A program made the position numbers and the translations under genes. A stretch of 35,372 nt of DNA from assembly GCA_023475265.1 (NCBI GenBank), contig JAMCWE010000150.1:1-35372 (forward strand), written 5' to 3'. Of this stretch, positions 21,158-35,349 are shown piece by piece (the stretch's first letter is position 1; the number at the start of each line of letters is the position of its first letter). The notes beneath the pieces were generated by a model. That model was given only the letters and a program-made list of their open reading frames with translations. It searched no databases and was not told the DNA's origin. This DNA comes from Bacteroidota bacterium. GTDB lineage: Bacteria > Bacteroidota > Ignavibacteria > Ignavibacteriales > Ignavibacteriaceae.

Positions 21158-22102
21158 ATGTTTGATAAAGTTTTAAAAGCAAAAGAAAGATTAAAAGGTT
21201 TTTCAAAACTTACTCCGATTGTTACGTCTACAACTCTTGATGAAATAGTTCAGGCAAATATTTTTTTGAAATGCGAAAATTATCAAAGGATGGGAGCGTT
21301 TAAATTTCGGGGTGCATTCAATGCAATGTCACAATTAAGTGAGGTAGAAAAATCGCGTGGAGTAATAACTTATTCATCAGGTAATCACGCTCAAGCTGTT
21401 GCATTAGTCGGAAAGATTTTGGGAATAAAAACAACAATCATAATGCCCAAGAACGCTCCTCAAATAAAACGAAAAGCAACTGCCGGATATGGCGCAGAAA
21501 TTATTGAATATGATCCGGCTTTTCAACAACGGGAAGAAATTGCTTTAGAAATTCAGAATAACAAGGGATACATTTTAATTCCGCCATTTGATCATCAAGA
21601 AATTATTGCGGGCCAAGGAACAGCGGCTTTAGAATTATTTGAAGAAAAAAAACAATTAGATTATCTATTAGCACCTTGCGGCGGCGGCGGCTTGTTAAGC
21701 GGTTCGGCAATTGCTTCAAAAGGAATTTATCCTAATTGTAAAGTAATTGGAATTGAACCTGAAGTTGCGGATGATGCAGCCAAATCATTTAAAACTAAAG
21801 TTCTGCACACCGTTAAAAATCCACCAACGATTGCTGATGGAACGCGAACAGCTTCGTTAGGAACAATTACTTTCCCGTTTGTTCTTGAATATGTTGATGC
21901 CATGATAACTGTATCGGAGAAATCGATTATCGAAGCAGTTAAATTTTTATTTTATAGAATGAAGCTTGTCGTTGAACCCTCCGGTGCATTAGGAATAGCG
22001 GCATTGTTAAGCGGTGCAGTAAAAGCGAATGGGAAAGTTGGTGTAATAATTAGCGGGGGAAATATCGACGCTGAAACTATGACTTTTATTTTAAACTCTT
22101 AA
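21158..22102 (+). CDS. threonine dehydratase / serine racemase-like PLP enzyme
   Basis: This fold-type II PLP enzyme of 314 residues should deaminate or racemise Ser/Thr. The PLP lysine is K49 in GAFKFRGA. SSGNHAQ (73-79) binds the substrate carboxylate and GGGGLLSG (175-182) the cofactor phosphate; VVEPSGA lies near the C-terminus. It lacks the C-terminal ACT regulatory domain of biosynthetic IlvA, so it is the catabolic threonine dehydratase / serine racemase / hydroxyaspartate ammonia-lyase type, which sequence alone does not separate. Its stop overlaps that of the convergent LuxC gene by four bases. If it makes D-serine it could feed the neighbouring cluster, but that is only a thought. 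Confidence 0.9.
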   Translation: MFDKVLKAKERLKGFSKLTPIVTSTTLDEIVQANIFLKCENYQRMGAFKFRGAFNAMSQLSEVEKSRGVITYSSGNHAQAVALVGKILGIKTTIIMPKNAPQIKRKATAGYGAEIIEYDPAFQQREEIALEIQNNKGYILIPPFDHQEIIAGQGTAALELFEEKKQLDYLLAPCGGGGLLSGSAIASKGIYPNCKVIGIEPEVADDAAKSFKTKVLHTVKNPPTIADGTRTASLGTITFPFVLEYVDAMITVSEKSIIEAVKFLFYRMKLVVEPSGALGIAALLSGAVKANGKVGVIISGGNIDAETMTFILNS

Positions 22103-23340
22103 ATTATATTTACTCTTTTGCTCAATTCATTTAATAATGAATAACCATCCCAAATAGGTGAAAAGTTTAATGCTTGTCCAATAGGTACGATTCTATCTGC
22201 CCCAGCGCCGTTAACCTTCTTGATAAAATTATTTAATTCTTCTTTTTCAAATCCATAATATGCAAGTGTTTGATCTTTTCTACTGACAAGATTAACAAGT
22301 TCGTCAAGGCTTTCTAAAAAGCATTCAAAGAAAAATCCTCCGCCGCATGATTCTCTGAATTTATTAATTTCTTCTTTGTCAACTTTCAACACTGTCGGTT
22401 TGTCTTTTTCTGGAGAAAATTTTGCTGATGCTTTTTCAGCTTTCGAAACTGATTCATACATATAAACTAACTTTTCCATAGCAACATCTATTGAATCATT
22501 TTTACCACGGCGCTTCAATTCTTTTTCAAGTGATTTCCAAAATGCATCGCTTGCTTCTTCACATTCTTTTTGCTCACCAATAAATAAAACAAATCGCGGA
22601 GACGAACAAGCCATTTGATCAAACCAATAAGCATCATTATAAAATTGAGTTGCCTGTATAGCTTTTTTGTCATCGGATAAATTATTATATGAAGAAGCTT
22701 TAATCATGGAATACGAAAATTTATCAGCGAACGTTATATCTTTGGTCGTTGGTTTGGAAGACAAAACTCTTATACTATTTATTGTTTCATCTCCTCCCCA
22801 TAAAACTCTAACATCAGAATGTAATGAAATAAACCGGTTGATCTTTTCATCACGAGGATAGGTTAAAACAATATTGCGAGTAGAAACCGGATTCCATTTT
22901 TCATCCTTAAAAATTTCTCTTATAAACGATAACAATAAATCAAGCTGAACATTTATATCCTGAGTAACCCGAACGATATTAATATTGCCGACCAAAAAAG
23001 ATAATGCCCATGAATAAAGAAAAATACTATCTACATTGGAGGGCGCAATATGAAAAGCAAATCCTCTTGGGACGATAATTTCCTGATAATTAATTTCTGT
23101 TCGAAAATTATTAATTATTGAAACAATGTTTGACTTGCGCAGCCAATAAGCTAATGCAACAAGTTCTGGAAAATTTTTTATTTCTTTTGATTCAAGAATT
23201 TTTTTTGATAAGCTGGAAAGAAATTCTATGCTTAAAGAATCAAAAGGCGATAGTGGTTTTTGACTGAGAAAATTCTCATTCAAAATATTTTCTATTACAA
23301 CTTCACGATTATACTGCGGTGCAAAAATAGTTACTTCCAT
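22099..23340 (-). CDS. LuxC-type acyl-CoA/acyl-protein reductase
   Basis: LuxC proteins reduce a thioester-bound acyl group to an aldehyde with NADPH, through an acyl-cysteine on the enzyme. In this 413-residue protein the family block PRGFAFHIAPSNVDSIFLYSW (91-111) and the nucleophile motif DQMACSSPRF (C245) are intact, and WGGDETI (181-187) fits the nucleotide fold. It is the last gene of the cluster, three bases after the LuxE gene, with AAGGT as ribosome binding site. LuxC and LuxE work as a complex in luminous bacteria. There is no luxAB or luxD here, so the role is aldehyde (or alcohol) formation for another product. Confidence 0.92.
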   Translation of the reverse strand: MEVTIFAPQYNREVVIENILNENFLSQKPLSPFDSLSIEFLSSLSKKILESKEIKNFPELVALAYWLRKSNIVSIINNFRTEINYQEIIVPRGFAFHIAPSNVDSIFLYSWALSFLVGNINIVRVTQDINVQLDLLLSFIREIFKDEKWNPVSTRNIVLTYPRDEKINRFISLHSDVRVLWGGDETINSIRVLSSKPTTKDITFADKFSYSMIKASSYNNLSDDKKAIQATQFYNDAYWFDQMACSSPRFVLFIGEQKECEEASDAFWKSLEKELKRRGKNDSIDVAMEKLVYMYESVSKAEKASAKFSPEKDKPTVLKVDKEEINKFRESCGGGFFFECFLESLDELVNLVSRKDQTLAYYGFEKEELNNFIKKVNGAGADRIVPIGQALNFSPIWDGYSLLNELSKRVNII

Positions 23341-23343
23341 GTT

Positions 23344-24444
23344 TTACCTTGATGCATTTAAAACTGATTCTGCATGAGTATCGCTGCAGCCGCGCAGTTC
23401 TGCCTTTGGAATTCTTCCATCAATCAAAAAATAAGTTCCTTTTCTTCCGCACTTACAATCATCAATACCTTTTATAGTTCCCAAATCTTCTGTTAATAAA
23501 GAATGACCAGGATAACTTTTTGGCAAAATGCTAATTGTCTGAACAACGCCGCTTTGACCAATAGGCAAAACGCTCCAGTCTTCAAAATTTCTGATTAGAA
23601 TTTCAGCAAAGTTTGGTGTGTGAAGAAATCCTTCTTCGCATTCCATAAAAATGCTGCCGACTTGTTCAACCATTCCATAAAAATTATAAATTCTTTTTAG
23701 CTTAAATTGATTGAACAATTCCTTTTTAAAAATTTCATTTGAGACAGCTTGTTCTTGAAGCTTCTTCCAGCCGCCGCTGTGAATTAGAATTGCAGAGCTG
23801 AGATCAATCACTTTATTTGTATCTTTTAACTTTTTAAAAAGATATTGCCATACCATAAAAGTAAAGCCAAAGATTAGGATCGATTCAGATTTATTTTTTT
23901 CTAAATAACTGATGAGTTCATCTACTTTCAGTTCCATATTCTCATCAAGAGCAAAGAAATGTTTACGACCGAAATTTGATAAACCAACAAGTCCAGCGCC
24001 ACGCGCGCTCAAAGAAGATTTATTTTTTATTGTGGCATCTGTGTCTATGATTATCATCGGCAGTCTTTTATTCCCGATGTAAGAAGTAATAATTGAAGCA
24101 AGCGCTTTTACTTGAAGCATCGAAGTTTCTTTGTTCAATGCAATTTTGGAAACTTGCTGTCCGGTGGTTCCGCTAGAAGTTAAAACTTTTAGAACTTCAG
24201 TGTCCGGGATGCTTTGAATTTTTTGGGATTTAAAAAGTCTTACCGGCAAATATGGGACATCTTCAATCTTCTGAAATTCATGCTCTGTGTTAATATCAAG
24301 ATTGTTTAAAATATTTTTATATGGGAGACAATTGGAGTAATGAAATTTTGTTAATTCAGACAATTCCGAAAGAAGTAGTGCGCGCTTTTTAGAATTATCA
24401 ATCGAGTATTCCGGCAGTTCAAATAATTCTTCAATTGCACTCAT
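23344..24444 (-). CDS. LuxE-type acyl-protein synthetase
   Basis: LuxE activates a carboxylic acid with ATP, takes the acyl group on its own cysteine and passes it to LuxC. The 366-residue protein shows the nucleotide motif LTSSGTTG (about 88-95), LIHSGGW (a conserved mid-region block), NFYGMVEQVG (acyl-adenylate site) and a C-terminal ELRGCSD. C353 lies 13 residues from the end, the place of the acylated cysteine in classical LuxE. A Cys pair (CKCGRKGTYF) precedes it. The start overlaps the preceding AMP-ligase gene by 14 bases. The substrate is unknown and need not be a long fatty acid. Confidence 0.92.
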   Translation of the reverse strand: MSAIEELFELPEYSIDNSKKRALLLSELSELTKFHYSNCLPYKNILNNLDINTEHEFQKIEDVPYLPVRLFKSQKIQSIPDTEVLKVLTSSGTTGQQVSKIALNKETSMLQVKALASIITSYIGNKRLPMIIIDTDATIKNKSSLSARGAGLVGLSNFGRKHFFALDENMELKVDELISYLEKNKSESILIFGFTFMVWQYLFKKLKDTNKVIDLSSAILIHSGGWKKLQEQAVSNEIFKKELFNQFKLKRIYNFYGMVEQVGSIFMECEEGFLHTPNFAEILIRNFEDWSVLPIGQSGVVQTISILPKSYPGHSLLTEDLGTIKGIDDCKCGRKGTYFLIDGRIPKAELRGCSDTHAESVLNASR

Positions 24445-25873
24445 TATACTGCATCTCTTGAATTAACTTGTAATCTTTTTTACCGGAAGAAGTAACTGGA
24501 ATTGAGTCAACGCAATGAACTTTAATTACTGAATGATGAATTTTATAAATGTCAATAATTTTCTTTTTTGCAATTTCAGAAATATTATCTGAATGTGCTT
24601 GTAATAAAACTTTTAATGAATCATCATTTCCATAACAAGCTGCCGAACATGAGAATTGATTTTCTAACATCTTTTCCACTTCATCTAAATTTACTCTTAA
24701 TCCAAAAAGTTTAATAAAACGTTTTAACCTTCCGGTAATATAATAAAATCCGTCAGTATCTTTGTAAGCTAAATCTCCTGTGTGAAGAACTCCATTTAAT
24801 TCATCTCCTTTGGATAAATCTTCTCTGGATTCTGCATAGCCCATCATTACATTTTTTCCAAGATAAACTAATTCTCCTTGTTCGCGAGAAGCAGAAATTT
24901 CTTTTCCATCAGTAAGTATTTTTATTTCACCACCGGGAATTGCTATTCCAATTGAACCAATTTTGTTCCCGAGTTTTTCAAATGGTACATAAGAAATTCT
25001 TGCTGTTGCTTCTGTCTGTCCATACATTACAAAAAAAATAATTTTCTTACTGACTGATACTTCGTAAAAATATTTTACAAACTCTTCGCTTAATCTTCCG
25101 CCGGCTTGAGTCATTGTTTTTAAAGTTGGTAAATCCATTTTAGCGAATTTTAATCTTTGCAGCATCTGATAATTATATGGAACGCCGGAAAACGAAGTAC
25201 ATTTCTGCATATTGAAAGTATTCCAGAATTCTCTCATCACCATAGATTTATTTGAACAAAGTATTGTCGACCCTTTAAGCAAATGACTATTTATTACTGA
25301 TAAGCCAAAAGAATAGCTCATCGGCAAACTTGTAATAGGTTTTTCGTTCACACTAATTCTTAAATATTCAGCGATTGATTCAGAATTAGCTTGAATATTA
25401 TTATAAGAAAGTTTTACAAGTTTCGGGCTGCCGGTTGTTCCTGAAGTTGAAAGTAAAACTGCAAGATCTTGATGGGGGGAGTGATTTGCAGAAATATTTT
25501 TCGAAGTATAAATTGAAAATTCATTGTTGATTACAACCTTGTTGTAGCCAGATGTAATTTCTGAAATTTCATCAACACTAAAAATTATTTCCGGGTTGTA
25601 GATTGAAATTAATCTTTTCTTTAGTTCACTATCCATTCGCGAGTTTGCAAGAAATATTGCATTGCCTGAGCGAAGTGCCGATAAATAAAATATTATGCTT
25701 TTAGCAGAATTATCGCAAAAAGAAAATATTATTTTTTTTGAATCGAAGCGAAGTTTATCAACAATTTCATCACTTTCTCTTTTTAGTTCTCCATAAGAAT
25801 AAACTTTATTCGAATCATCATCAATTAATGCAACTGAATTAGGAGTAATATTTTCTAAATTCCAAAACATCAC
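24431..25873 (-). CDS. AMP-dependent acyl ligase (class I adenylate-forming)
   Basis: This 480-residue enzyme should adenylate a carboxylic acid and form a thioester, probably with the ACP encoded nearby or CoA. Core motifs are A3 STSGTTGSPK (142-151), A5 MYGQTEAT, A7 HTGDLAYKDTDG, A8 GRLKRFIKLFGLRV and A10 SSGKKDY with the catalytic lysine. It differs from the two DltA-like enzymes upstream (GTTG versus GSTG, no FCGE), so it handles a different substrate, possibly a fatty or aryl acid. Start is GTG 25873 or ATG 25870; both overlap the ketoreductase stop (GTGATG), implying translational coupling. It lies between FabG-like and LuxE genes. Confidence 0.9.
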   Translation of the reverse strand: MMFWNLENITPNSVALIDDDSNKVYSYGELKRESDEIVDKLRFDSKKIIFSFCDNSAKSIIFYLSALRSGNAIFLANSRMDSELKKRLISIYNPEIIFSVDEISEITSGYNKVVINNEFSIYTSKNISANHSPHQDLAVLLSTSGTTGSPKLVKLSYNNIQANSESIAEYLRISVNEKPITSLPMSYSFGLSVINSHLLKGSTILCSNKSMVMREFWNTFNMQKCTSFSGVPYNYQMLQRLKFAKMDLPTLKTMTQAGGRLSEEFVKYFYEVSVSKKIIFFVMYGQTEATARISYVPFEKLGNKIGSIGIAIPGGEIKILTDGKEISASREQGELVYLGKNVMMGYAESREDLSKGDELNGVLHTGDLAYKDTDGFYYITGRLKRFIKLFGLRVNLDEVEKMLENQFSCSAACYGNDDSLKVLLQAHSDNISEIAKKKIIDIYKIHHSVIKVHCVDSIPVTSSGKKDYKLIQEMQYNECN

Positions 25874-26628
25874 ATTATCATTCCGCCGTCGACGCCCAAA
25901 ACTTGTCCGGTTACATACGAAGATAGATCGGATGCAAAAAATAAAACTGCGTTAGCAACATCTTCCGGCTGACCAACTCTTTTCATTTTAATTGAACTTA
26001 ATCTTTCTTGATATTTTTCAGGCGAAAGTGATTTAATAAAATCTGTGTTTATAAAACCAGGGGCGATTGCATTTACCCTTATATTCATTGGTGCAAGCTC
26101 ACGTGCCGCTGAAAGTGTAATACCGATTACAGCTGCTTTACTTCCGCCATAAACAACCTGGCCTTCGTTTCCAACTTTACCAACTATCGAAGAAATATTA
26201 ATTATAGAGCCCGATTTATTTCGCATCATCAATCTTGCGGCTAATTGTAAATTATTAATTACTCCGGTTGTATTGGTATTGAATGTATTTTGGATGTCTT
26301 CTTTTTTAATCATGCCGACTAAATTATCTTCAAGCATTCCGGCATTATTAACAAGTATATCCAGCCTTTTATATTTTTTAAATATGGCGTTGTAGCAATT
26401 TTGAGTTGCTTCCAAATCACCGACATCAAATAAAAATCCATCAACATCAACATTGAATTCTTTTTTTAATTCTTCTTTCCGTTGATCGAGTAATTCCTGG
26501 CTGTGTACGCCATTTAGAATTACTGTTGCACCGAATTTAGTTAATAGTTTTGCTTCGGCCCAACCTTGTCCTCTTGTCGATCCGGTAATAAAAGCGATTT
26601 TACCTTCGAGATTAAAAATTGATGTCAT
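25870..26628 (-). CDS. FabG-like 3-oxoacyl-ACP reductase (SDR)
   Basis: This classical short-chain dehydrogenase of 252 residues has a cofactor loop TGSTRGQG (15-22), NNAG (94-97), an S147-Y160-K164 catalytic set in NISSIVG and VVYGGSK, and the C-terminal YVTGQVLGVDGG block typical of FabG. The likely reaction is NADPH reduction of a 3-oxoacyl (or similar keto) group on the cluster's ACP, but other ketone substrates are possible. Its start lies inside the ACP gene (17-base overlap) and its stop overlaps the ligase start. There is no ketosynthase in the window, so the keto group must come from elsewhere. Confidence 0.92.
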   Translation of the reverse strand: MTSIFNLEGKIAFITGSTRGQGWAEAKLLTKFGATVILNGVHSQELLDQRKEELKKEFNVDVDGFLFDVGDLEATQNCYNAIFKKYKRLDILVNNAGMLEDNLVGMIKKEDIQNTFNTNTTGVINNLQLAARLMMRNKSGSIINISSIVGKVGNEGQVVYGGSKAAVIGITLSAARELAPMNIRVNAIAPGFINTDFIKSLSPEKYQERLSSIKMKRVGQPEDVANAVLFFASDLSSYVTGQVLGVDGGMIM

Positions 26629-26848
26629 ATTTTTTTAGAATCTCCTTAGCTTTTTTAAAGCTGCTCATATCAATTACATCATCCGAATTAAGCATAATAT
26701 CAAATTCGGTTTCAATAGAAGCTACTAATGATAGATGAGCAATGGAATCCCAAGTTTCATTCCCATAGCTTAATTCATCTGTAATTTTTTCAGAGGGTAT
26801 TTCGAGAGCTTCCGAAAATGCTTTGATTAGTTTTTTTAGATTCTCCAT
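26612..26848 (-). CDS. free-standing acyl/peptidyl carrier protein
   Basis: The 78-residue acidic protein has the carrier-protein four-helix pattern, with the phosphopantetheine serine S35 in ETWDSIAHLSLV. Helix 2 begins SIAHLSLVASIETEFDI. It is small and lies between the GNATs and the thioester-handling enzymes, so it is the obvious carrier for the cluster. It starts inside the end of the upstream GNAT gene (59-base overlap) with its own GGAGA ribosome binding site five bases before the ATG. The motif W-DS-I is closer to carrier proteins of amino-acid or special acyl pathways than to the housekeeping DSLD AcpP. Confidence 0.92.
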   Translation of the reverse strand: MENLKKLIKAFSEALEIPSEKITDELSYGNETWDSIAHLSLVASIETEFDIMLNSDDVIDMSSFKKAKEILKKYDINF

Positions 26849-27560
26849 TTTTTCTCCACAAATTGGATTTTTTATTTTCTAACTTACTTAAATTTTCAAA
26901 CTTTTCCTTATCTAATTCCATTAATACTTTAGTACCATAAGGGAAAAATTTCAGAATATCTAAATTAGCTGTATGTTTTTCTTCAACAACTTGATATCCT
27001 AATTTAAGATGGGCATTAAAAGATTTGTAATTTTCCTTGAATAAAATACCCTGAACCTTTTCAAAATTATATTCCACTTTATTCCATAAAATATGTTCTC
27101 TAATTATATTGGTAAATACACCTTGTCTTCTATATGGTTCGCGTGTATAACCATGTTCTAATTGTAGTGTTTTAGATTTGCGGTTTAAAGATAAATCTTT
27201 TATAACTTTGGTATTTTTACTAATATCTTTCATTTTCGATTTATCCAAATATGGAAAAAGGACAGTAGCTTTTATGATTCCGCTAGGAGTTTCATCCGGA
27301 GCTTCAAACCAAGAACCTAGAGCTCCGATATATTCACCATCTTTTTCGGCAATTAGAAAACCTGAGAGATAATAATCATAGTTCGGAATATTTTGGAGTA
27401 AAACTATTTTCAATATTTCTTTAAATCGTACTTCGCTTAAGGCGAAAACATTGCATGAACTAATAATGCTGGAGTTGCTTTTTTCCGATTCAATTATTGT
27501 TTCAATTACAAAATCAAGATCATCGGCAGTTGCCTGTCTAATTGAAAGTCCTTCAATCAT
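26790..27560 (-). CDS. GNAT-fold acyltransferase, paralogue 1
   Basis: This 256-residue member of the cluster's GNAT family has the CoA/pantetheine loop EPYRRQGVF (141-149) and a motif-B-like NYKSFNAHLKLGY (177-189). The family marks are IRQAT (7-11), ISSCNVF with C36, and GSWFE (82-86). GNAT enzymes move an acyl group from CoA or ACP to an amine. It has the longest tail of the four, about 30 residues rich in K, S and N, coded in the 59 bases shared with the ACP gene. A good AGGAGT lies seven bases ahead of the ATG. It opens the tightly packed block ending in LuxC. Confidence 0.85.
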   Translation of the reverse strand: MIEGLSIRQATADDLDFVIETIIESEKSNSSIISSCNVFALSEVRFKEILKIVLLQNIPNYDYYLSGFLIAEKDGEYIGALGSWFEAPDETPSGIIKATVLFPYLDKSKMKDISKNTKVIKDLSLNRKSKTLQLEHGYTREPYRRQGVFTNIIREHILWNKVEYNFEKVQGILFKENYKSFNAHLKLGYQVVEEKHTANLDILKFFPYGTKVLMELDKEKFENLSKLENKKSNLWRKNGESKKTNQSIFGSSRNTL

Positions 27561-27869
27561 AACCGACTCCTATAATAATCAATTTGTTTTAGTATTTTAT
27601 TTTAAGCTATTAAGATGCACCGCTACAAATGGATTGGGAATTCTAAAATCAACTTTAGAAAATAACAATAAATAACTCTAATATTATTAGAACAAATATA
27701 TTGTTGTTTTTATTAAAATTTGTAAAAAAACTTACATTATATTAAATGTAATCTATTTGTTGATATGCGACACTTTAAATAATCTATTATCATCTTTTAA
27801 GTTAATTACATTAATTATGGTTATGCCTTTGAATGATAATAAAATTTAATAAGGTTAACTGGAGATTGG
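27561..27869. other. non-coding gap between GNAT paralogues 1 and 2
   Basis: This 309-bp AT-rich stretch contains the AGGAGT site of paralogue 1 at its left end. On the minus strand a TATATTTG box fits TAnnTTTG but has no TTG partner at 19-21 bases, so a promoter for the downstream block is possible but unproven. No gene or remnant was recognised. Confidence 0.35.
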
Positions 27870-28544
27870 CTAAAGTTTGGTTATGCTTTCTTGATCCAAT
27901 TCCATCAAAATTCTTGTATCATATGGAAAAAATTTTAGAATCTCAGGGTTATGAGTCCTCTTTTCACAAACAATTTTATACCCAAACTTTAGAAATGCGG
28001 AATAAGATTTATAATTACTTTTTAAAAGGATAGGTTGGACTTTGGTAAAAGAATATTTTTTTTTGTTTCTTTTAATATTTTCAGTGACCAAAAGATAGAA
28101 AATACCACAGCCTCTAAATTTTTCTCTCACATAAATATTTTCAATCTGGAGAGCACCAATTTCCCGGTTAAGTGTAAATTCCTTTATAATCTGAAGATTG
28201 TTTTTAATCTCATCTATTTTTTCATCTTTAATATAAGGGAATAACATTGTTGACTTAATAATTCCACTTTGCACTCCATCCGCGCCTTCCAACCATGACC
28301 CGCAAGCACCGACATATTCTCCATTCGTTTCAGCAATTACATAGCCAGATAAAAAATAATCATAATTTTCTATATTCTGATTAAGGATATCGAATAAAAT
28401 TTTTTTATACTCATCCGCATCAAATGCAAAAACATTACACAAACTAATCATATCTGTACTGCTCTTATCCGCTTCGATAATAGCTTCAATAACAAAATTA
28501 ATATCGTCTATCGTGGCTTGCCTAATTATCACTTCATTATTCAT
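27870..28544 (-). CDS. GNAT-fold acyltransferase, paralogue 2
   Basis: At 224 residues this is the shortest of the four and ends soon after MELDQESI, about where the conserved family core stops. It has IRQAT (7-11), ISLCNVF with C36, GSWLE (82-86), the loop REKFRGCGIF (140-149; RxxGCG instead of RRQG) and NYKSYSAFLKFGY near the C-terminus. It aligns without gaps to paralogue 1 over the first 150 residues. No ribosome binding site is visible; TACTAT ends five bases before the ATG, so leaderless expression is possible. It is flanked by non-coding gaps on both sides, unlike the overlapping genes downstream. Confidence 0.82.
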   Translation of the reverse strand: MNNEVIIRQATIDDINFVIEAIIEADKSSTDMISLCNVFAFDADEYKKILFDILNQNIENYDYFLSGYVIAETNGEYVGACGSWLEGADGVQSGIIKSTMLFPYIKDEKIDEIKNNLQIIKEFTLNREIGALQIENIYVREKFRGCGIFYLLVTENIKRNKKKYSFTKVQPILLKSNYKSYSAFLKFGYKIVCEKRTHNPEILKFFPYDTRILMELDQESITKL

Positions 28545-28654
28545 AATCTATAGTAATATATTAAAAATTAAATTGAAGATATTTTTTTAAGTACCCAAAA
28601 AGTTTTAAATATTCTAAGTGCATAGAGAATTTTAAAATAATGAGAGTATAATTT

Positions 28655-29380
28655 TTAGCTAGCAAGGGAATAATCATATGAATTAATAATTGTTAGATGT
28701 TCTTTCAAAAGATGCATTATGTTCTCTTTATTAAATTCCATGAGCACCTTAGTATTAAAAGGGAAGAAGTTAAATATTTCAGGATTGTCAACATTTCTTT
28801 CTTCAACAACTTGATAACCCACTTTAAGATTAGCATTATACGATTTATAATTCTGCTTAAATAATATTACTTGAGATAAATCGAATTTATATTTGTCAAA
28901 ATTACGTTTGATATTTTCTTTTACTAATTGTGTAAAGATTCCTTGACGTCGATATGGTTCACGAACATAACCATGTTCAAGTTGAAGTGTTCCTTTTTTT
29001 CTTGTGAATGTCAAATTTTTTATAATTTGTGTATTCTTACTGACTTCTTTTACTTTTGTTTTATCAAGATATGGGAACAAAACTGTCGCTTTTATTAAGC
29101 CGCTTGGAGTTCCGTCAATGCTTTCAAGCCATGATCCTGAAGCTCCGATATATTCATCTTTCAACTCGGCAACGAGAAAACCGGATAAAAAATAATCATA
29201 ATTTTCTATATCCTGCTGAAGAATATCTTTTAAGGCACTCCTAAACTTTTCTTCCGGTATGTTAAATACATTACATGAGCTTATTGTATTGGAACTGCTC
29301 TTTTCTGATTCGATTATTGCTTCAATTACGAAATCAATATCATTTGTAGTTGCTTGCCTAATCTGGATATCATCAATCAT
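28655..29380 (-). CDS. GNAT-fold acyltransferase, paralogue 3
   Basis: The 241-residue protein is the closest relative of paralogue 1: about 100 of the first 150 residues are the same by hand count, without gaps. It keeps IRQAT, ISSCNVF with C36, GSWLE (82-86), EPYRRQGIF (141-149) and NYKSYNANLKVGY. The C-terminal tail (about 22 residues after EFNKENI) is unrelated to that of paralogue 1. A CGGAGT site lies before the ATG. Retention of the intact CoA/pantetheine loop suggests an active enzyme. Acyl donor and acceptor are unknown; the local ACP is a candidate donor. Confidence 0.83.
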   Translation of the reverse strand: MIDDIQIRQATTNDIDFVIEAIIESEKSSSNTISSCNVFNIPEEKFRSALKDILQQDIENYDYFLSGFLVAELKDEYIGASGSWLESIDGTPSGLIKATVLFPYLDKTKVKEVSKNTQIIKNLTFTRKKGTLQLEHGYVREPYRRQGIFTQLVKENIKRNFDKYKFDLSQVILFKQNYKSYNANLKVGYQVVEERNVDNPEIFNFFPFNTKVLMEFNKENIMHLLKEHLTIINSYDYSLAS

Positions 29381-29949
29381 TTAGAACTCCGTTAGTTAAA
29401 TAAAACAATAATAATAAATACTCTTAAATCTAGTTGTTACATCTCTAATATTATACCAACCGATAATTATGTTTTTTTGAGAATTAATAAAGATATTGTA
29501 TCAATAAATTGTGTTTCAAATGAAGTCATTAAAAATATTTTGAGCCATATGGATATATATTCACTTTTAAGAAAAGTTTAGAATGTAAATTATAACTCGG
29601 AAGGAGAATAGGTTAAAAAGTGCGGGACAAATTATGTCTAGAAAACAGCAAGTGATGAAAAATTATATGTTAAATTTAAAAGCATTGAAAGTAAGATAAA
29701 AATTGAGAGATATAAATTTTTTAGTTATAGAAAGTATAGAAGTAAATAATCATGTTATTATATATTAGAAATGTCTACCTTTTTTCAACTCAATTATATT
29801 CGAAATACTAAGTGCGGATAATCCACTTTCTTAATCATTCATTAGTTCATCAAATTTAATAATAGAAACTGATTAAGATAAATGAAATATAATTCCACTC
29901 AATTTTATTATTTTACTAGATTATATTATCTATTATTTTAATAAGATTT
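29381..29949. other. 569-bp non-coding gap inside the cluster
   Basis: This is the largest gap in the minus-strand cluster, about 75-80% A+T by eye. I see no carrier-protein, GNAT or ligase remnant in any frame, only short chance frames such as one starting at 29634 on the plus strand. The CGGAGT ribosome binding site of paralogue 3 is at its left end. On the minus strand a TAAATTTG box exists, without a partner TTG. It may contain a promoter for the downstream genes or the scar of a lost gene. Confidence 0.35.
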
Positions 29950-30666
29950 TTATAAATAGGAACCGTTAATTATTAATTCTAAAGGAGTTTTAACTAATTC
30001 TTTTGCTTGTTCTTTATCCAATTCCATCAGTACTTTTGAATTGTATGAGAAAATTTTATAAATATCAGAATCTTCGTTTTTTCTTTCTGCTTTAACTTTA
30101 AATCCTAATTTTTCGAATGCTAAAAATGATTTATAATTATCTCTATATAAGATTGTTTGAACTTTAGCTTGGTGTCCTGAATTGAAATGTTTACGTATAC
30201 TTTCGACTATTAAAGTAGTAAATATTTTTTTTCTTCTTTGATTTTCAATTACATAGCCGTACTCAAATTGAATAACATTCTGTTCTCTATCTAATGATAA
30301 TGAATTTGCTAGATGCATATTTTCTTTAATATTATTTAGTCGTTCCCTATTGATAAAAGATAAAATTAAATTTGAACTTATAATATTGTTTGCGATTCCA
30401 TCAATACCTTCAACCCAAGAACACAAAGCACCAAATTTATTACTTTTGTTTTTTATTATTAGGAATCCTTTTAAGCTAAATTCATTATTCTCAAAACCTG
30501 ACAAGAGAATGTTTCTTAGCAACTCTTTGTATTCATCTTTGGTTAGTGAAAAAATATTACAAATGCTGATTTTATCAGTACTGCTTTTGTCAGCTTCAAT
30601 AATTGTCTCGATAATAAAATTTATATCCTCAAAAGTAGCTTGACGAATAGAAAGGTTTTCGATCAT
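29950..30666 (-). CDS. GNAT-fold protein, paralogue 4, with altered CoA loop
   Basis: This 238-residue family member aligns without gaps to the others over residues 1-150: IRQAT, ISICNIF with C36, CSWVE (82-86). The loop is ENQRRKKIF (141-149), so the glycine that contacts the pyrophosphate in RRQG is replaced by lysine. It is also the most divergent in residues 60-130. It may bind acyl groups differently, work on a carrier protein, or be a non-catalytic partner. Its start is three bases after the stop of the adenylating enzyme, with GAGGA inside that gene's last codons, so the two are translationally coupled. Confidence 0.8.
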   Translation of the reverse strand: MIENLSIRQATFEDINFIIETIIEADKSSTDKISICNIFSLTKDEYKELLRNILLSGFENNEFSLKGFLIIKNKSNKFGALCSWVEGIDGIANNIISSNLILSFINRERLNNIKENMHLANSLSLDREQNVIQFEYGYVIENQRRKKIFTTLIVESIRKHFNSGHQAKVQTILYRDNYKSFLAFEKLGFKVKAERKNEDSDIYKIFSYNSKVLMELDKEQAKELVKTPLELIINGSYL

Positions 30667-30669
30667 TCT

Positions 30670-32181
30670 TTAGTCCTCTAGATTTGCTACAATTTTTATT
30701 AACGATTTTCTATCAATCTTTCCATTTGAATTCAAAGGGAAATCTGATATTGATGTAATTTTAGATGGCATCATATATTGTGGAATTTTAGTTTTTAAAT
30801 ATTCTGTTATCTCGTTGATGTTGCCGGAATAATTTTCAATAAATAAATAAATTTGAAGCCCACCAGTACTTTTTTCAACTGGTACTGCAAAGACTTTTGT
30901 GACTTTAGTAAAGTTTCTTGCGTGGTGTTCAATCTCTCCAAGTTCAATTCTAAAACCCTGTATCTTTATTTGATTATCTTTTCTCCCACAGTACATAAAA
31001 TCGCCGTCGTTGTCGATAAAAGAAATATCTCCTGTTCTATAAAATCTTTTTGCTGTTGAATTTTCATTAAAAATAAAAAATGATTCTTTATTTTTTACCG
31101 GATTATTTAAATAACCATTAGTTAATTGATTCCCGGATAAACTTAATTCACCTTTTTCATTATCAGTTATTATTTTGTTTCCTTCATCTATTATAATTGA
31201 CTCCATATTATCCATTGGTTTCCCAATACTAACTATTCCATTGAAGCTTTTAATTTTTGTTTTGTCCTTTGGTATGGGATAGGTAAGACAAAAAATAGTT
31301 GCTTCAGTTGGGCCATAAACATTTTGAACTTCTGCATTTTGTACACAATCGAGCCAATCTTTAACTAAATCAGAATACAATGCTTCTCCGCAAAAAAGTG
31401 AATACTTCAGCTCATTTAATTTAATCTCATTAAAATATGGTTTTAAATAACTAAGAATTGATGGGACCATTAAAGCAAAGGTTATTTTTTCTTCTTCAAG
31501 CACACAGTAAATTGAAGAAAACTTTATCCCATCTCCGGGAACAGTATAAACACAAGCGCCAATACAAAGTGGAATTACATAGCAAATAATTGAAAGGTCA
31601 AATGTCATTTCGAACATTTGAAGGAACCTATCGCTCTTATCAATTTTATATCCTAATTTAAAAAAATTATTTACAAATTCCTTAAGGTTCTTCATGGTCA
31701 ATTGAACTCCCTTAGGAATTCCAGTGCTTCCTGAAGTAAATAATACATAAGCAATATTGTTTTCATCAATTATAGGAACTTCTAAATTTATACTTGCCGG
31801 TGGTAATTTCTTAGTACTAATTAATTTTATATTTTCTTTGGCTGCAAATTTTTGAAAGCTGTTATTTCCATTGCTGGCTAAAATAACTTTTAATCCGGAT
31901 TGCTTGATAACAGAAATATTTCTTTCAAAAGGATGGTTTGGATTAATAGGAACAAAACCTTTTCCGGCGTATAAAATCCCGAATACCGAGCAGTATGTTT
32001 CTATATCATCGTTTGTTAATATGCCGATAAGCTTTTCAGAATCATTACAATTATTCTCTAAATAAAATCTTATCTTTGAAACAATTTCAGCAAATGTTAA
32101 ATACGAATAAAATTTTTTATTAATATGAAAAGCATTTCTACCATGGAAATTATGCACACTTTCTTTTATTTTAGTAAGCAT
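30670..32181 (-). CDS. stand-alone amino acid adenylating enzyme 2 (DltA-like)
   Basis: The 503-residue enzyme has all adenylation motifs: A3 TSGSTGIPKG (149-158), A4 MTFDLSIICY, A5 NVYGPTEAT, A7 YRTGDI, A8 GRKDNQIKIQGFRIELGEIE and A10 NSNGKIDRK with the catalytic lysine. The segment SLFCGEAL is shared with D-alanine ligase DltA. By hand alignment to GrsA the specificity positions read D-L-I-L-L-C-V-I-F-K. The Asp that binds the substrate amino group is kept, so an amino acid substrate is likely. There is no carrier or condensation domain and no dltB/C/D. It is a tandem paralogue of the next gene upstream and is coupled to GNAT paralogue 4. Confidence 0.9.
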   Translation of the reverse strand: MLTKIKESVHNFHGRNAFHINKKFYSYLTFAEIVSKIRFYLENNCNDSEKLIGILTNDDIETYCSVFGILYAGKGFVPINPNHPFERNISVIKQSGLKVILASNGNNSFQKFAAKENIKLISTKKLPPASINLEVPIIDENNIAYVLFTSGSTGIPKGVQLTMKNLKEFVNNFFKLGYKIDKSDRFLQMFEMTFDLSIICYVIPLCIGACVYTVPGDGIKFSSIYCVLEEEKITFALMVPSILSYLKPYFNEIKLNELKYSLFCGEALYSDLVKDWLDCVQNAEVQNVYGPTEATIFCLTYPIPKDKTKIKSFNGIVSIGKPMDNMESIIIDEGNKIITDNEKGELSLSGNQLTNGYLNNPVKNKESFFIFNENSTAKRFYRTGDISFIDNDGDFMYCGRKDNQIKIQGFRIELGEIEHHARNFTKVTKVFAVPVEKSTGGLQIYLFIENYSGNINEITEYLKTKIPQYMMPSKITSISDFPLNSNGKIDRKSLIKIVANLED

Positions 32182-32235
32182 ATTTTAATCCAAATTATGT
32201 TTAACAAACATTTGATAAAATTAAATTGCTCTTTA

Positions 32236-33771
32236 TCAATTAGAAAATGATTGTTTTAATTCCATACACATTGAGACTAACTTTTTCCTGTCAATCTTTC
32301 CGTTATCATTTAACGGAAAGGAAGGAATACTAGTTATATAAGAAGGCACCATATACTCGGGTATTTTCGATTTCAAATATTCTTCAATATCCAATGAATT
32401 ACCGTTATAGTTTTCTACGAATAAATGTATTTGCATATTTCCGAATGTGTTTTGATAGCCTACTGCGGCAACATTTCCACCTTTAATAAATTCTCTTGCA
32501 AAATGTTCAATCTCGCCAAGTTCGATTCTGAATCCCTGGATTTTAATTTGATTGTCAATCCTTCCGGCAAAAAAGAAATCACCTTCGTCATCTTGAAAAG
32601 CTAAATCGCCTGTACGATAAAATATTTCATCTTTACCATTTATTCTAGCTTTGAAGAATGTCTTTACATTTTTTTCGTCATCTTTCCAGTAACCAGGTGT
32701 AAGCTGTTTGCCTGATAAACAAAGCTCACCTTTTTCTCCGGGCTTGCCGGAAATTATTTTTGAATTTTCATCAATAACTACTGAACCCATGTTTATCATT
32801 GGCTTGCCAATACAAACTCCGCCGTTAAAAGTTTTTTTAGATGAGCTTTCGTTATTCCATTCATAAATTAAGCAGAAGACAGTTGCTTCAGTTGGACCGT
32901 AAGCATTAATTATTTTTGCGTTTGGTGTACATTTAGACCATCCTTGCGCTATTTGATCTAAAAGTGTTTCTCCGCAGAATAGGGAATATCTCATTTTGTC
33001 CAATTTAATTTCATCAAAGTAGGGAGTAAGATAAGATAAAACCGATGGAACCATACAGGCAAAAGTTATTTCATGTTCTTCCAATGCAATATAAACGTTA
33101 GCAAACTTTACTCCTTCTTCCGGGATAGTATAAATACAAGCGCCAACACAAAGAGGTACGGTATAACAAACAACAGAAAAATCAAATGTTAACTCGAACA
33201 TTTGTAAGAATCTATCATTCTCATTTACATTATATCCTAATTCAAGAAATGCATCAACGAATGAATTTAAATTTTTTCTGTTAATAGGAACTCCTTTGGG
33301 AACTCCTGTACTTCCTGAAGTGAATAACAAATATGCAATTTCATTTTCATCTACAATCGGAGGCTTTAAATTTATTTGAGTGCTTGGTAAATCAACTACA
33401 TTTACAACATTGGCATTTTTTGTTGATGCAATTCCTTTAATTTGCTCTTCATTTTGTTTGCATAAAATAGTTTTTATTCCGGTTTGTTCAAGGATAGATG
33501 AATTGCGGCTCAGCGGATTAGAAGGATTAATCGGAACATAGCCGCGTCCGGAAAACAAGCATCCGTATATTGCAGCATAAGTTTCAATCTCTGGAGATTG
33601 TTTTGCAATGATTCCAATTAATTTTTCTGAACCCTTACAATTAGTTTCAATATAATTTCTAACATTGGAAATTAATTGGGCAAATTGTTTATAAGAATAA
33701 TAAATACCATTTATAAAAAATGCGTTCCGGTTAGGAAATTTTAAATATGATTGTTGAATTTTTTCCAGCAC
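32236..33771 (-). CDS. stand-alone amino acid adenylating enzyme 1 (DltA-like)
   Basis: This is the first gene of the cluster, 511 residues. Motifs: A3 TSGSTGVPKG (151-160), A4 LTFDFSVVCY, A5 NAYGPTEAT, A7 YRTGDLAFQDDEG, A8 GRIDNQIKIQGFRIELGEIE and A10 NDNGKIDRK. SLFCGETL is DltA-like. Specificity positions by hand read D-F-V-C-L-C-A-V-F-K, so the pocket differs from enzyme 2 at several places and probably takes a different amino acid. GTG 33771 is the start: the N-terminus then aligns with enzyme 2 (MLxKI...RNAFxIN) and AGGAGA lies 10 bases upstream. A 54-base gap separates it from enzyme 2. Confidence 0.9.
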   Translation of the reverse strand: MLEKIQQSYLKFPNRNAFFINGIYYSYKQFAQLISNVRNYIETNCKGSEKLIGIIAKQSPEIETYAAIYGCLFSGRGYVPINPSNPLSRNSSILEQTGIKTILCKQNEEQIKGIASTKNANVVNVVDLPSTQINLKPPIVDENEIAYLLFTSGSTGVPKGVPINRKNLNSFVDAFLELGYNVNENDRFLQMFELTFDFSVVCYTVPLCVGACIYTIPEEGVKFANVYIALEEHEITFACMVPSVLSYLTPYFDEIKLDKMRYSLFCGETLLDQIAQGWSKCTPNAKIINAYGPTEATVFCLIYEWNNESSSKKTFNGGVCIGKPMINMGSVVIDENSKIISGKPGEKGELCLSGKQLTPGYWKDDEKNVKTFFKARINGKDEIFYRTGDLAFQDDEGDFFFAGRIDNQIKIQGFRIELGEIEHFAREFIKGGNVAAVGYQNTFGNMQIHLFVENYNGNSLDIEEYLKSKIPEYMVPSYITSIPSFPLNDNGKIDRKKLVSMCMELKQSFSN

Positions 33772-34170
33772 TGTTCAAATTTCTCCTATGACGTTAATAA
33801 TTTATCAAATATATTTATTGCTTGTAGCGTATATTTCCAATCACCAAAAGTTTAACCACTTGATTAAATATTCAGAATCAATAATTAATATATTAAACCT
33901 GTTTTCTGCAGGCAAGTATTTTTATTTATTAATTGGTGAATGAAACCTTAACTAGTCAGAAAGTTTATCTAAAATTATACCAATTCAAACAATCTGATCT
34001 GGAAACATATTAAAACTTGCAGCCATGTTTATCGTCTCATAAAAAGCCAAAGATTATTAAACTTTGATCACAATGAGATGAAAAATTTAAATTATTTTTT
34101 TCCTTAGAATTAAATCTGGAAATTTATATTTTAGCGATACAGTTTACTTTCAGAATATTTGAGGAAGTTC
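33772..34170. other. divergent intergenic region, head of the cluster
   Basis: This 399-bp region lies between the adenylating enzyme (minus) and the NlpC/P60 gene (plus). It holds the ribosome binding sites of both and a candidate promoter for the cluster (33812-33840). A perfect 12-base TTAATATATTAA palindrome (about 33888) is too simple to interpret. No gene was seen. Confidence 0.4.
33812..33840 (-). promoter_or_regulatory. candidate promoter of the biosynthetic cluster
   Basis: On the minus strand TTGGAA (33835-33840) and TAAATA (33812-33817) are 17 bases apart, about 40 bases before the GTG start of the first cluster gene. Both boxes are imperfect. Confidence 0.3.
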
Positions 34171-35349
34171 ATGCGATATTTTATAATAATAATTTCTTTT
34201 CTGTTAGCAGCACCTATTTTTTCACAGCAAAAAAAATCTATGGAAGATATTCAAAAGATAATTTCAGAAGTTCAGCAGAAATATGCGCCGGATAAAAGAA
34301 CAACAGTATTTATTGTCTCTCCGAAATCAGAAGGAGAAGAAGTCCTTCTTTCCGGTGAGACAAATTTATCAAATGCCAAATCTGAATTAATTAAAAATTT
34401 GGAAAAGGAAGGAATGAAAGTTAAAGACGAGATAGAAATTCTTCCCGCAAAAGACTTAGGTGAAGAAATTTATGGAGTAGTTAATTTGTCGGTTGCTACA
34501 TTTCGTGTAAAACCAGATCATCAAGCAGAGCTTGCAACTCAAGCCCTCCTTGGAAGTTCAGTAAAACTTTTAAAAAAATCTAAAGGCTGGTTCCTCGCTC
34601 AAACTCCTGATAAATATATTGCGTGGATAGAATCCGGCAGCTTTACAGCGATGAATAAAGAACAGATTTCCGAATGGAATTCTTCGGATAAAATTATTTA
34701 TACTAAAGATTATGGATTTTCATATTCACAAGATAATCTTAATTCCGATCCTGTATCTGATCTTGTCATTGGAAATATTTTAAAAAAGCTTGGAACTGAA
34801 GGCGATTTTGTAAAGGTTGAATACCCGGATAAAAGAATTGCCTATATCCCAAACTCATCTTGTGAAGATTATAAAACTTGGTTAGAAAGCCGTCAATTAT
34901 CAGCGGAAAATATTATTAAGGCTGCAAAAACATTTTTAGGTGTTCCGTACCTTTGGGGCGGCACATCGGCAAAGCTGATGGATTGCAGCGGTTTTACAAG
35001 AACAGTTTTCTTTTTAAATGGAGTTTTCTTACCACGAGATGCTTCTCAGCAGGTTAATGTGGGAATTCCAATCAATACTAGGGACGGTTTTAATAATCTT
35101 CAACCCGGAGATTTATTATTCTTTGGTAAAAAAGCTACGGAAAATTCAAAAGAAAAAATTACTCACGTTGGAATTTATATCGGCAACGGAGAATTTATTC
35201 ATGAAGCCGGTATGGTTAAAATAAACAGCTTCGATAAATCTGCAAAGAATTTTAACGCGTATAGATTAAATCAATTTGTTCGCGCAAAAAGAATTATTGG
35301 TTCTGTAGGTGAAAATGGAGTTGAAGCATTGAAAAGCGTGCAATATTAA
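34171..35349 (+). CDS. exported SH3b-NlpC/P60 peptidoglycan endopeptidase
   Basis: NlpC/P60 enzymes cut peptide stems of peptidoglycan, often gamma-D-Glu-diaminopimelate bonds. This 392-residue protein has a signal peptide (MRYFIIIISFLLAAPIFS, cleavage before QQKK). About 100-250 holds SH3b-like domains (VATFRVKPDHQAELATQ..., KSKGWFLAQTPD). The C-terminal NlpC/P60 domain has the catalytic Cys in LMDCSGFTR, the His in ITHVGIYIGNG and a downstream FIHEAG. PYLWGGTS is the usual tyrosine block. ATG 34171 is favoured over an in-frame TTG at 34159 because GAGGA (34161-34165) sits six bases ahead. It diverges from the cluster and probably serves general cell-wall turnover. Confidence 0.92.
   Translation: MRYFIIIISFLLAAPIFSQQKKSMEDIQKIISEVQQKYAPDKRTTVFIVSPKSEGEEVLLSGETNLSNAKSELIKNLEKEGMKVKDEIEILPAKDLGEEIYGVVNLSVATFRVKPDHQAELATQALLGSSVKLLKKSKGWFLAQTPDKYIAWIESGSFTAMNKEQISEWNSSDKIIYTKDYGFSYSQDNLNSDPVSDLVIGNILKKLGTEGDFVKVEYPDKRIAYIPNSSCEDYKTWLESRQLSAENIIKAAKTFLGVPYLWGGTSAKLMDCSGFTRTVFFLNGVFLPRDASQQVNVGIPINTRDGFNNLQPGDLLFFGKKATENSKEKITHVGIYIGNGEFIHEAGMVKINSFDKSAKNFNAYRLNQFVRAKRIIGSVGENGVEALKSVQY

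Follow-up and report, generated by a model that had tools for sequence, protein, structure and literature searches.

The Dlt system (DltA-DltC-DltB-DltX-DltD) provides the D-alanine coating of Gram-positive bacteria, that is, the D-alanylation of teichoic acids. According to the accessible part of PMC12148441, characterised MBOAT-SGNH systems export acetyl groups, or D-alanine in the case of Dlt, and the acyl shuttle, an FXYXXF motif, is carried by DltX in the Dlt system and by the C-terminal end of other MBOATs; the same part describes PatA as using acetyl-CoA and the MBOAT-SGNH pathways other than Dlt as having no carrier protein. A further gene set is described for the group II flagellin glycosylation islands of Aeromonas, which hold an acyl carrier protein (ACP), a 3-oxoacyl-ACP reductase, an AMP synthetase, LuxE, and LuxC, in that order (PMC7874193, in the part available), and the same gene types are given for enterobacterial islands (PMC4875605, likewise in part). 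Here, we describe a cluster in which such a set stands next to amino acid adenylation domains (A-domains) and GNAT-family proteins. It lies in a 35,372-nucleotide stretch from a member of the Ignavibacteriaceae (Bacteroidota), namely bases 1-35372 of contig C137 of genome G000; this whole stretch is referred to below as the window, and G000 is the window's own genome.

The cluster occupies the right third of the window (22099-33771) and consists of eleven co-directional, open reading frames on the minus strand, in the order A1, A2, GNAT4, GNAT3, GNAT2, GNAT1, ACP, SDR (a FabG-like reductase), LIG3 (a third AMP-forming ligase), LuxE, and LuxC. We consider it somewhat more probable than otherwise (roughly 0.57) that this cluster supplies, from the cytoplasmic side, a Dlt-like system for envelope acylation, placing N-acyl-aminoacyl groups on carrier proteins for an MBOAT-SGNH pair. 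In this model, A1 and A2 would adenylate two different amino acids and load them onto a carrier protein, and the GNATs would acylate the alpha-amine of each amino acid in its carrier-bound (or activated) form. The window's four GNATs would represent a divergent subclass, whose acyl group would probably come from the ACP-SDR-ligase-LuxE-LuxC module and not from acetyl-CoA. The N-acyl-aminoacyl thioester would then reach the carrier protein of an SGNH-ACP-MBOAT operon, located on contig C231 in this genome, whereupon the MBOAT would move the group across the membrane via its C-terminal Tyr and the SGNH protein would esterify a surface polymer with it. We infer the substrates, the order of these steps, the role of LuxE/LuxC, and the acceptor polymer; the genes, their linkage, and their conserved residues are described below.

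Linkage of related gene sets to an MBOAT operon in other genomes

The comparison set comprised 59 genomes including the window's own, with 13 of its genus and 22 from other families of the order. GNAT relatives are present in 15 of the 59, namely 11 of the 13 genus genomes (the window's own included) and four from other genera of the family, and in none of the 22 genomes from other families. A1-like A-domains (E 1e-90) occur in 16 genomes; both genes are present in 14 and either in 17 (Fisher 1e-10), and because of this co-occurrence the gene set goes beyond chance. GNATs without A1 were found only in G005, where the contig ends behind the GNATs, and A1 without GNATs in G012 and G034. The order A-(A)-GNAT(n)-ACP-SDR-ligase-LuxE-LuxC, with one to four GNATs per genome, recurs in G001, G002, G004, G005, G008, G009, G010, G011, G028, and record L066, where it is seen whole, interrupted (G004), or cut at contig ends. 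The preliminary description of this DNA had left room for the genes not being conserved together; in the genus they are. The G007 cluster (L029, C71) is fragmented, with short stretches of A-domain and LuxC sequence and duplicated pieces, through decay or poor assembly. In an even draw across the phylum, the GNAT was found at E 1e-12 in 3 of 395 genomes, own included, and the family therefore looks rare.

In relatives, the neighbours of these genes include an MBOAT (PF03062, 82 bits) and SGNH/GDSL proteins, and a targeted search located MBOAT in 52 and SGNH in 48 of the 59 genomes. The MBOAT lies 1 nt to 4.7 kb from A/GNAT/LuxC genes in six of the 15 genomes with GNATs (G001, G002, G005, G007, G019, and G028), while in G012 A1 and LuxC stand beside it, A1 at a distance of 5 nt. 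There is also a shared neighbourhood: the fatty-acyl-AMP ligase (FAAL)-MBOAT operon adjoins an NlpC/P60-type gene and a putative dipeptide epimerase gene in G017, G018, G020, and G036; the NlpC gene at 34159-35349 adjoins A1 in the window; and A/GNAT genes lie beside the same gene in G004 and G032. G019 joins both arrangements, with SGNH-ACP-MBOAT followed by GNAT-GNAT-A1-A2 and then NlpC and epimerase. The first view of the cluster as self-contained is not supported: its recurrent partner is a carrier-protein/MBOAT/SGNH operon, a type that moves acyl groups to surface polymers.

The presence of GNATs varies with the loader content of this operon. Of the 24 genomes in which a FAAL gene precedes ACP-MBOAT, mostly as SGNH-FAAL-ACP-MBOAT, 23 lie outside the genus; G027 and G034 have no FAAL and carry an FkbH gene downstream of ACP-MBOAT (L076:4526-8438 and L093:4334-7852); and 14 genomes, 11 of the window's genus, have SGNH-ACP-MBOAT with no visible loader. 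GNATs are present in only 1 of the 26 genomes with an operon loader (FAAL 24, FkbH 2) versus 12 of the 14 without (Fisher 2e-7), a comparison that leaves out 19 of the 59 genomes (11 without a close full-length MBOAT, six without ACP, and two with cut contigs, G002 and G014). Within the family outside the genus, with one genome taken per genus, the figures are 0/9 with a loader and 3/3 without (p 0.0045). A stricter count, for which G007 was taken as loaded and G008 and G010 were dropped, since their MBOAT is cut and a downstream loader would be invisible, still gives 2/27 versus 9/11 (p 1.6e-5). GNATs are thus found mainly where the operon loader is missing, and the A/GNAT set seems to take the loader's place.

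As for the loaders themselves, the FAAL-ACP-MBOAT operon is, from its predicted gene products, a carrier-protein-dependent MBOAT system for some acyl group, of which no description turned up in the literature searches made. Operons of this type are widespread in the order, as at L078:8401-11864, L079:6414-11443, and similar loci. FkbH beside ACP-MBOAT may indicate export of a glycerate- or lactate-type acyl group; the FkbH-ACP-MBOAT locus of G027 also holds a glyoxalase-like gene.

The same linkage extends to Bacteroidia. A scan of contigs from the GNAT alignment, made with a single peptide pattern and hence no census, yielded at least 26 loci labelled Ignavibacteria, 'Bacteroidetes', Bacteroidia, Bacteroidales, Lentimicrobiaceae, and Marinilabiliaceae, together with one 'Chlorobiaceae' and one 'uncultured bacterium'. 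Among the six Bacteroidia loci, five have A-GNAT-ACP and then MBOAT in the same direction, the MBOAT being directly next in L059, L060, and L063 and following after one or two genes in L064 and L065; L065 has its A-domain truncated at the contig end, and L060 has a glyoxalase-like gene between A and GNAT. The sixth, L061, has A-GNAT-ACP among glycosyltransferases (identified by eye) with no MBOAT within 20.6 kb. The SGNH partner exceeds the Pfam cut-off only in L065 (33.5 bits) and is weak in L059, and the candidates in L060, L063, and L064 matched no significant family. Two Marinilabiliaceae loci (L063:5918-10918 and L064:6015-10894) show two A-domains, two GNATs, and two carrier-like genes (by size and position) in alternation, an arrangement in which a two-step, dipeptide-like assembly before the MBOAT is possible.

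For the MBOAT of G000, the sole NCBIfam match is the DltB equivalog TIGR04091, at 196 bits and below its cut-off of 375. Its AlphaFold model (pLDDT 88.2) matches DltB 8jem with Z 29.9 and a root-mean-square deviation of 3.3 over 387 aligned residues, and 6bug, which we take to be DltB as well, with Z 30.0; the best human MBOAT reaches only 22.9. The DltB match spans residues 11-415, with the last helices beyond that range, and the end of the model, which carries the shuttle motif, is predicted with low confidence (last block, mean pLDDT 55). All 48 of 48 full-length MBOATs carry the histidine of the WHG motif and, four residues from the end, a Tyr; both residues are invariant in a 22-row alignment that includes Bacteroidia; a strict F.Y..F ending is present in 35/48, the window's genus having mostly V at the first place. 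An ACP gene lies beside the MBOAT in G000 (between SGNH and MBOAT) and in 39 further operons classed by that feature, so that here a C-terminal shuttle motif and a carrier protein occur together. The aligned carrier proteins have the phosphopantetheine site WDS in 58/58, and the aligned SGNH proteins have the DS serine in 42/42. Lipase_GDSL_2 scored 32.8 bits (cut-off 32.9) in G005 and 18.5 and 28.2 in two others, and the G000 candidate had no NCBIfam match; the partner protein is likely of SGNH type, with no match that places it in the DltD family.

Genes near the MBOAT give weak hints of the transferred group and its acceptor. The gene after the MBOAT encodes a D-amino-acid transaminase in G000 (L067:9337-10188; TIGR01121 279.1 bits, cut-off 277.45) and, by BLAST, in G004 (L068:11124-11972), a weak hint from gene content that a D-amino acid may be used. 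Six genomes of another family have, close to the FAAL-MBOAT operon, genes that are RmlA-like sugar nucleotidyltransferase genes by their N-terminal motif (L097:14997-15860, L100:13900-14790, L106:169-1032, L108:14312-15175, L109:13972-14835, and L110:8470-9339), and an RmlB-like gene lies near the MBOAT of G032 (L080:4280-5299); these genes hint at a glycan acceptor.

Genes of the cluster and their adenylation domains

The preliminary description had listed eleven co-directional minus-strand genes of these types, and the open reading frames, profiles, and a structural model confirm them at the coordinates below; Pfam was run on ten of the eleven proteins and A1 was scanned with NCBIfam only.

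32236..33771, minus strand: A1, stand-alone amino acid adenylation domain, 511 aa (TIGR01733 308.6 bits, core motifs)
30670..32181, minus strand: A2, second stand-alone adenylation domain, 503 aa (Pfam AMP-binding 181 bits, TIGR01733 306)
29950..30666, minus strand: GNAT4, 238 aa (homology and tree; its clade otherwise goes with KASIII or FkbH modules)
28655..29380, minus strand: GNAT3, 241 aa (AlphaFold model, GNAT fold)
27870..28544, minus strand: GNAT2, 224 aa (homology to GNAT3 and tree; Pfam below cut-off)
26790..27560, minus strand: GNAT1, 256 aa (homology to GNAT3 and tree)
26612..26848, minus strand: ACP, 78 aa, phosphopantetheine site WDS (PF00550 23.6 bits, cut-off 20.8; alignment)
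25870..26628, minus strand: SDR, FabG-like reductase, 252 aa (PF13561 207 bits; TIGR01830 245.5, cut-off 297.75)
24431..25873, minus strand: LIG3, third AMP-forming acyl ligase, 480 aa (Pfam AMP-binding 148 bits)
23344..24444, minus strand: LuxE-family acyl-protein synthetase, 366 aa (PF04443 173.9 bits)
22099..23340, minus strand: LuxC-family acyl reductase, 413 aa, ACSSP cysteine region (PF05893 108 bits)
34159..35349, plus strand: NlpC/P60-type gene, a positional marker outside the pathway (reading of the protein, no profile match)

The end of GNAT1 overlaps the start of ACP by 59 nt, and the genes from ACP through LuxC overlap or lie at most 3 nt apart. AT-rich gaps separate GNAT4 from GNAT3 (569 nt), GNAT3 from GNAT2 (110 nt), and GNAT2 from GNAT1 (309 nt), and no gene remnants were recognised in these gaps or in the region upstream of A1 (best E 0.49). 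G004 has a second cassette, KASIII-ACP-ligase-Fe-alcohol dehydrogenase-LuxE-LuxC-SDR (L026:15774 to L027:2931), between its GNAT4-like and GNAT3-like genes, the site of the 569-nt gap in the window. Promoter-like sites numbered 55 versus 67 in shuffles, and terminator-like sites 5 versus 4.6; no claim is therefore made on operon limits.

As the preliminary description had it, no condensation, ketosynthase, luciferase, or sugar gene is seen in the cluster. Condensation and thioesterase domains were found neither by Pfam in the ten proteins nor, by NCBIfam and length, in A1; no sugar or glycosyltransferase gene was recognised in the window and no luciferase among its open reading frames; and PADLOC gave no defence-gene match for ten proteins. 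From a reading of its open reading frames, the remainder of the window looks like unrelated housekeeping. The genome holds two phosphopantetheinyl transferase-family genes, so carrier activation is possible.

A1 and A2 share 54% identity. On the AA-adenyl-dom profile TIGR01733 (cut-off 317), their scores are 309 and 306 bits, and both retain all five A-domain motifs searched. On the DltA equivalog TIGR01734, they reach 257 and 266 bits, far below the cut-off of 559.85, so 'DltA-like', the term first applied to them, is to be read as stand-alone A-domain of the nonribosomal peptide synthetase (NRPS) type: the stand-alone character holds and the assignment to DltA does not. Pocket codes were taken as nine positions located by motif rules, with the final K not read from the sequence. 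The A1 pocket is DFVCLCAVF, identical in five genomes and varied elsewhere (e.g., DFFALCAVF), whereas the A2 pocket is DLILLCVIF, of a recurrent type DLMLLCV(I/N)F with small changes; given these two recurring types, two distinct amino acids are likely. The A2 code presumably resembles that of DltA, a resemblance not counted as evidence here; among the structure alignments listed, all chains are those of gramicidin synthase. LIG3 matches the amino-acid A-domain profile weakly, at 135 bits against a cut-off of 317.

In the relative G002, the A2 orthologue and a GNAT are fused in a single 733-aa reading frame (L024:5242-7443). It had been suggested that the GNATs form the amide bond on amino acids activated by the A-domains; this fits both the fusion and the co-occurrence, and we infer that it is so.

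GNATs, acyl modules, and alternative explanations

The Pfam GNAT signal is weak, with three of the window's GNATs below cut-off and GNAT1 unmatched. For GNAT3, its identity is secured by a predicted structure together with its structural matches: the AlphaFold model (pLDDT 93.4) has an ordinary GNAT fold (Foldseek E 1e-8), and its neighbours by VIA-align include 4m85 (Z 16.9), PaiA (15.0), RimI (14.2), and phosphinothricin acetyltransferase (14.0), the last of these being third in the Foldseek list. GNAT3 is 37-62% identical to the other three, with 62% for GNAT1; GNAT4 is the most distant (37-43% to the other three). N-terminal and amino-acid N-acetyltransferases are among the structural neighbours, which fits acylation of an alpha-amine by the GNATs.

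This closeness would also suit GNATs that are acetyl-CoA N-acetyltransferases making N-acetyl-aminoacyl groups, the Lux cassette then being an unrelated neighbour that supplies another decoration, and so would the finding that, of the six Bacteroidia loci, all but L061 (weak KASIII match 9 kb away) have no recognised acyl module near the GNATs. The residues weigh partly against it. Sequences were scored at the catalytic-Tyr position and in the G/A motif of the cofactor loop, both of which we take to be canonical for GNATs. Tyr is kept in 18 of 51 homologues, again in keeping with plain acetylation, and is replaced in 33; the window's GNATs have H, F, N, and F at this position and F in place of the usual G/A in their cofactor loops. 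Furthermore, at least one non-Tyr GNAT is present in each of the 16 loci that have a Lux, KASIII, or FkbH module, whereas 8 of the 10 loci with no acyl module hold Tyr GNATs only; loci were sorted by hand, with module and GNAT on different contigs in G003, a lone GNAT in L057, and L061 counted as having no module despite its weak match. This association suggests that the window's GNATs may use a non-acetyl acyl group, and we regard plain acetylation as very unlikely.

In a tree of the 51 GNATs, the Tyr label needs four changes, and therefore the association rests on few independent events. GNAT1-3 cluster, with weak support (88/45), with GNATs from genomes that have the Lux module. The group that holds GNAT4 (82/88) has six further members, all from genomes carrying KASIII or FkbH modules.

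A broader formulation would have dedicated GNATs substitute for NRPS condensation domains: they would take acyl groups on carriers, supplied by interchangeable Lux, KASIII, or FkbH modules, and join them to amino acids likewise bound to carriers; the resulting N-acyl-aminoacyl, perhaps dipeptidyl, thioesters on ACPs would be exported by MBOAT-SGNH as surface-polymer esters, a separate class of envelope decoration. This we put forward tentatively, as a possibility that we rather doubt.

The LuxE/LuxC pair does not make this a bioluminescence locus. A lux operon of bacterial luciferase was considered and rejected, as LuxC and LuxE are far below the respective equivalogs (35 bits versus a cut-off of 750, and 79 versus 550) and no luciferase was recognised in the window. 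LuxE at 66% identity or above is present in 9 of the 59 genomes, all nine with GNATs. The order ACP-SDR-ligase-LuxE-LuxC occurs with no A/GNAT genes in other phyla: a Deinococcus plasmid (L117) has the same five genes in order beside exopolysaccharide glycosyltransferase genes, Ponticoccus has four of the five cassette genes in order with LuxC nearby, and Rhizobium shows a different arrangement. Conversely, A/GNAT genes stand with no LuxE/LuxC nearby in G019, G032, and the five Bacteroidia loci with MBOAT. From its distribution, the Lux module is an accessory add-on to the A/GNAT core in the window's genus.

These patterns bear on the pathway proposed in the preliminary description, an NRPS-independent route to acylated amino aldehydes or alcohols, taken here as soluble products that LuxE/LuxC would release reductively in the last step. 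Both Lux families score above their Pfam cut-offs, A-domains, ACP, and GNATs share one cluster with them, and every genome with the close LuxE has a GNAT; nevertheless, A/GNAT genes with no LuxE/LuxC nearby mean that reductive release is not the common end, and the cassette itself exists elsewhere apart from A/GNAT genes. A soluble end product of this kind is in our view improbable, and the alternative that the same description had offered, an unusual acyl or aminoacyl group for a surface polymer whose sugar genes lie elsewhere, is the better reading.

A surface group could also be built differently, through cytoplasmic sugar modification, in which the A-domains would load amino acids onto the ACP, the GNATs would pass aminoacyl or other acyl groups, ahead of export, to an amino group on a nucleotide sugar or a lipid-linked sugar, and the MBOAT operon would handle a different acyl group. 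The best-scoring plasmid relative of A2 (38% identity) belongs to a Segatella copri capsule cluster, where it is followed by ACP, an AAC(3)-type N-acetyltransferase, and alanine racemase; the three other plasmid A-domain matches inspected had no ACP, N-acetyltransferase, or racemase neighbours, one being an NRPS among glycosyltransferase and sulfotransferase genes. The Lux cassette likewise keeps company with glycan genes, in the flagellin glycosylation islands (PMC7874193, as far as its available part goes) and on the Deinococcus plasmid, and several Bacteroidia loci lie, by eye, among glycosyltransferases. However, the window holds no recognised sugar or glycosyltransferase gene, none was seen by eye beside the A/GNAT genes of the genus or of other Ignavibacteria, where most neighbours were not searched by profile, and sugar modification leaves unexplained why A/GNAT genes are present where the MBOAT operon has no loader. 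We hold it to be rather unlikely.

Several observations weigh against the Dlt-like supply model that we prefer. In the window's genome, the SGNH-ACP-MBOAT operon (L067) is on the separate contig C231 and its link to C137 is unseen, and the figure of 12/14 is dominated by a single genus. Individual genomes depart from the replacement pattern: G003 holds both FAAL and GNAT (at 7% contamination), G007 has GNATs plus, at 2.9 kb from its MBOAT, an FkbH gene, no GNAT accompanies the A1-like fragment and FkbH of G034, G033 has GNATs with no MBOAT found, and no GNAT was detected in G006 and G012 (79 and 89% complete). A related MBOAT has no ACP in 6 of the 59 genomes, and thus this MBOAT type is not always carrier-dependent. 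On the side of the acyl group, two Marinilabiliaceae loci have non-Tyr GNATs and no module, no KASIII or FkbH partner for GNAT4 was found in the window's genome at E 1e-60, and the reductase pair would have no obvious place in making an acyl donor.

Comparison with known systems

The combination of A-domain, GNAT, Lux, and MBOAT genes was found in no description in the literature searched, as judged mostly by titles and the beginnings of abstracts, a search outside which subscription papers and preprints fall. If the Dlt-like supply model is true, the surfaces of some bacteria would bear esters of N-acylated amino acids whose synthesis needs no NRPS condensation domain, and the GNATs would constitute a new amide-forming step on carrier proteins. 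Cytoplasmic supply looks modular, with FAAL, FkbH, or the A-domain/GNAT set feeding what is apparently the same export pair. The cluster also opens the LuxE/LuxC cassette known from flagellin-glycan islands to genetic study.

As in FeeM-type N-acyl amino acid synthases, the cluster has a GNAT fold and a proposed use of acyl-ACP. FeeM-type synthases make free N-acyl amino acids, and we know of no A-domain or MBOAT partner for them. FeeM is not among the 50 structural matches listed for GNAT3, a list that does not exclude a relation. With the capsule cluster of S. copri DSM 18205, the cluster shares an A-domain (38% to A2), an ACP, and an N-acyltransferase; there, however, the N-acyltransferase is of another family, no MBOAT is annotated in 19 kb, and the genes lie inside a sugar cluster.

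Similarity to Dlt is seen in the stand-alone A-domain, the small carrier protein, the DltB-fold MBOAT with its conserved His, and the probable SGNH protein. Unlike Dlt, the cluster has two A-domains of differing codes, a GNAT family, and an accessory acyl module; the shuttle Tyr motif is at the MBOAT C-terminus and not on a separate DltX, the phylum is different, and the DltA and DltB equivalog scores are below cut-off. With the MBOAT-SGNH acyltransferases of the PatA/PatB type, as portrayed in the accessible part of PMC12148441, the system has in common the MBOAT His, a C-terminal FxYxxF-like motif, and an SGNH partner, but here a carrier protein is encoded between SGNH and MBOAT. The five gene types and their order are those of the Aeromonas group II cassette (PMC7874193, in its available part), although here they are preceded by A-domains and GNATs, and no glycosyltransferase or pse gene was recognised. 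Overall, the cluster would work like Dlt and PatAB but shows the full set of defining features of neither.

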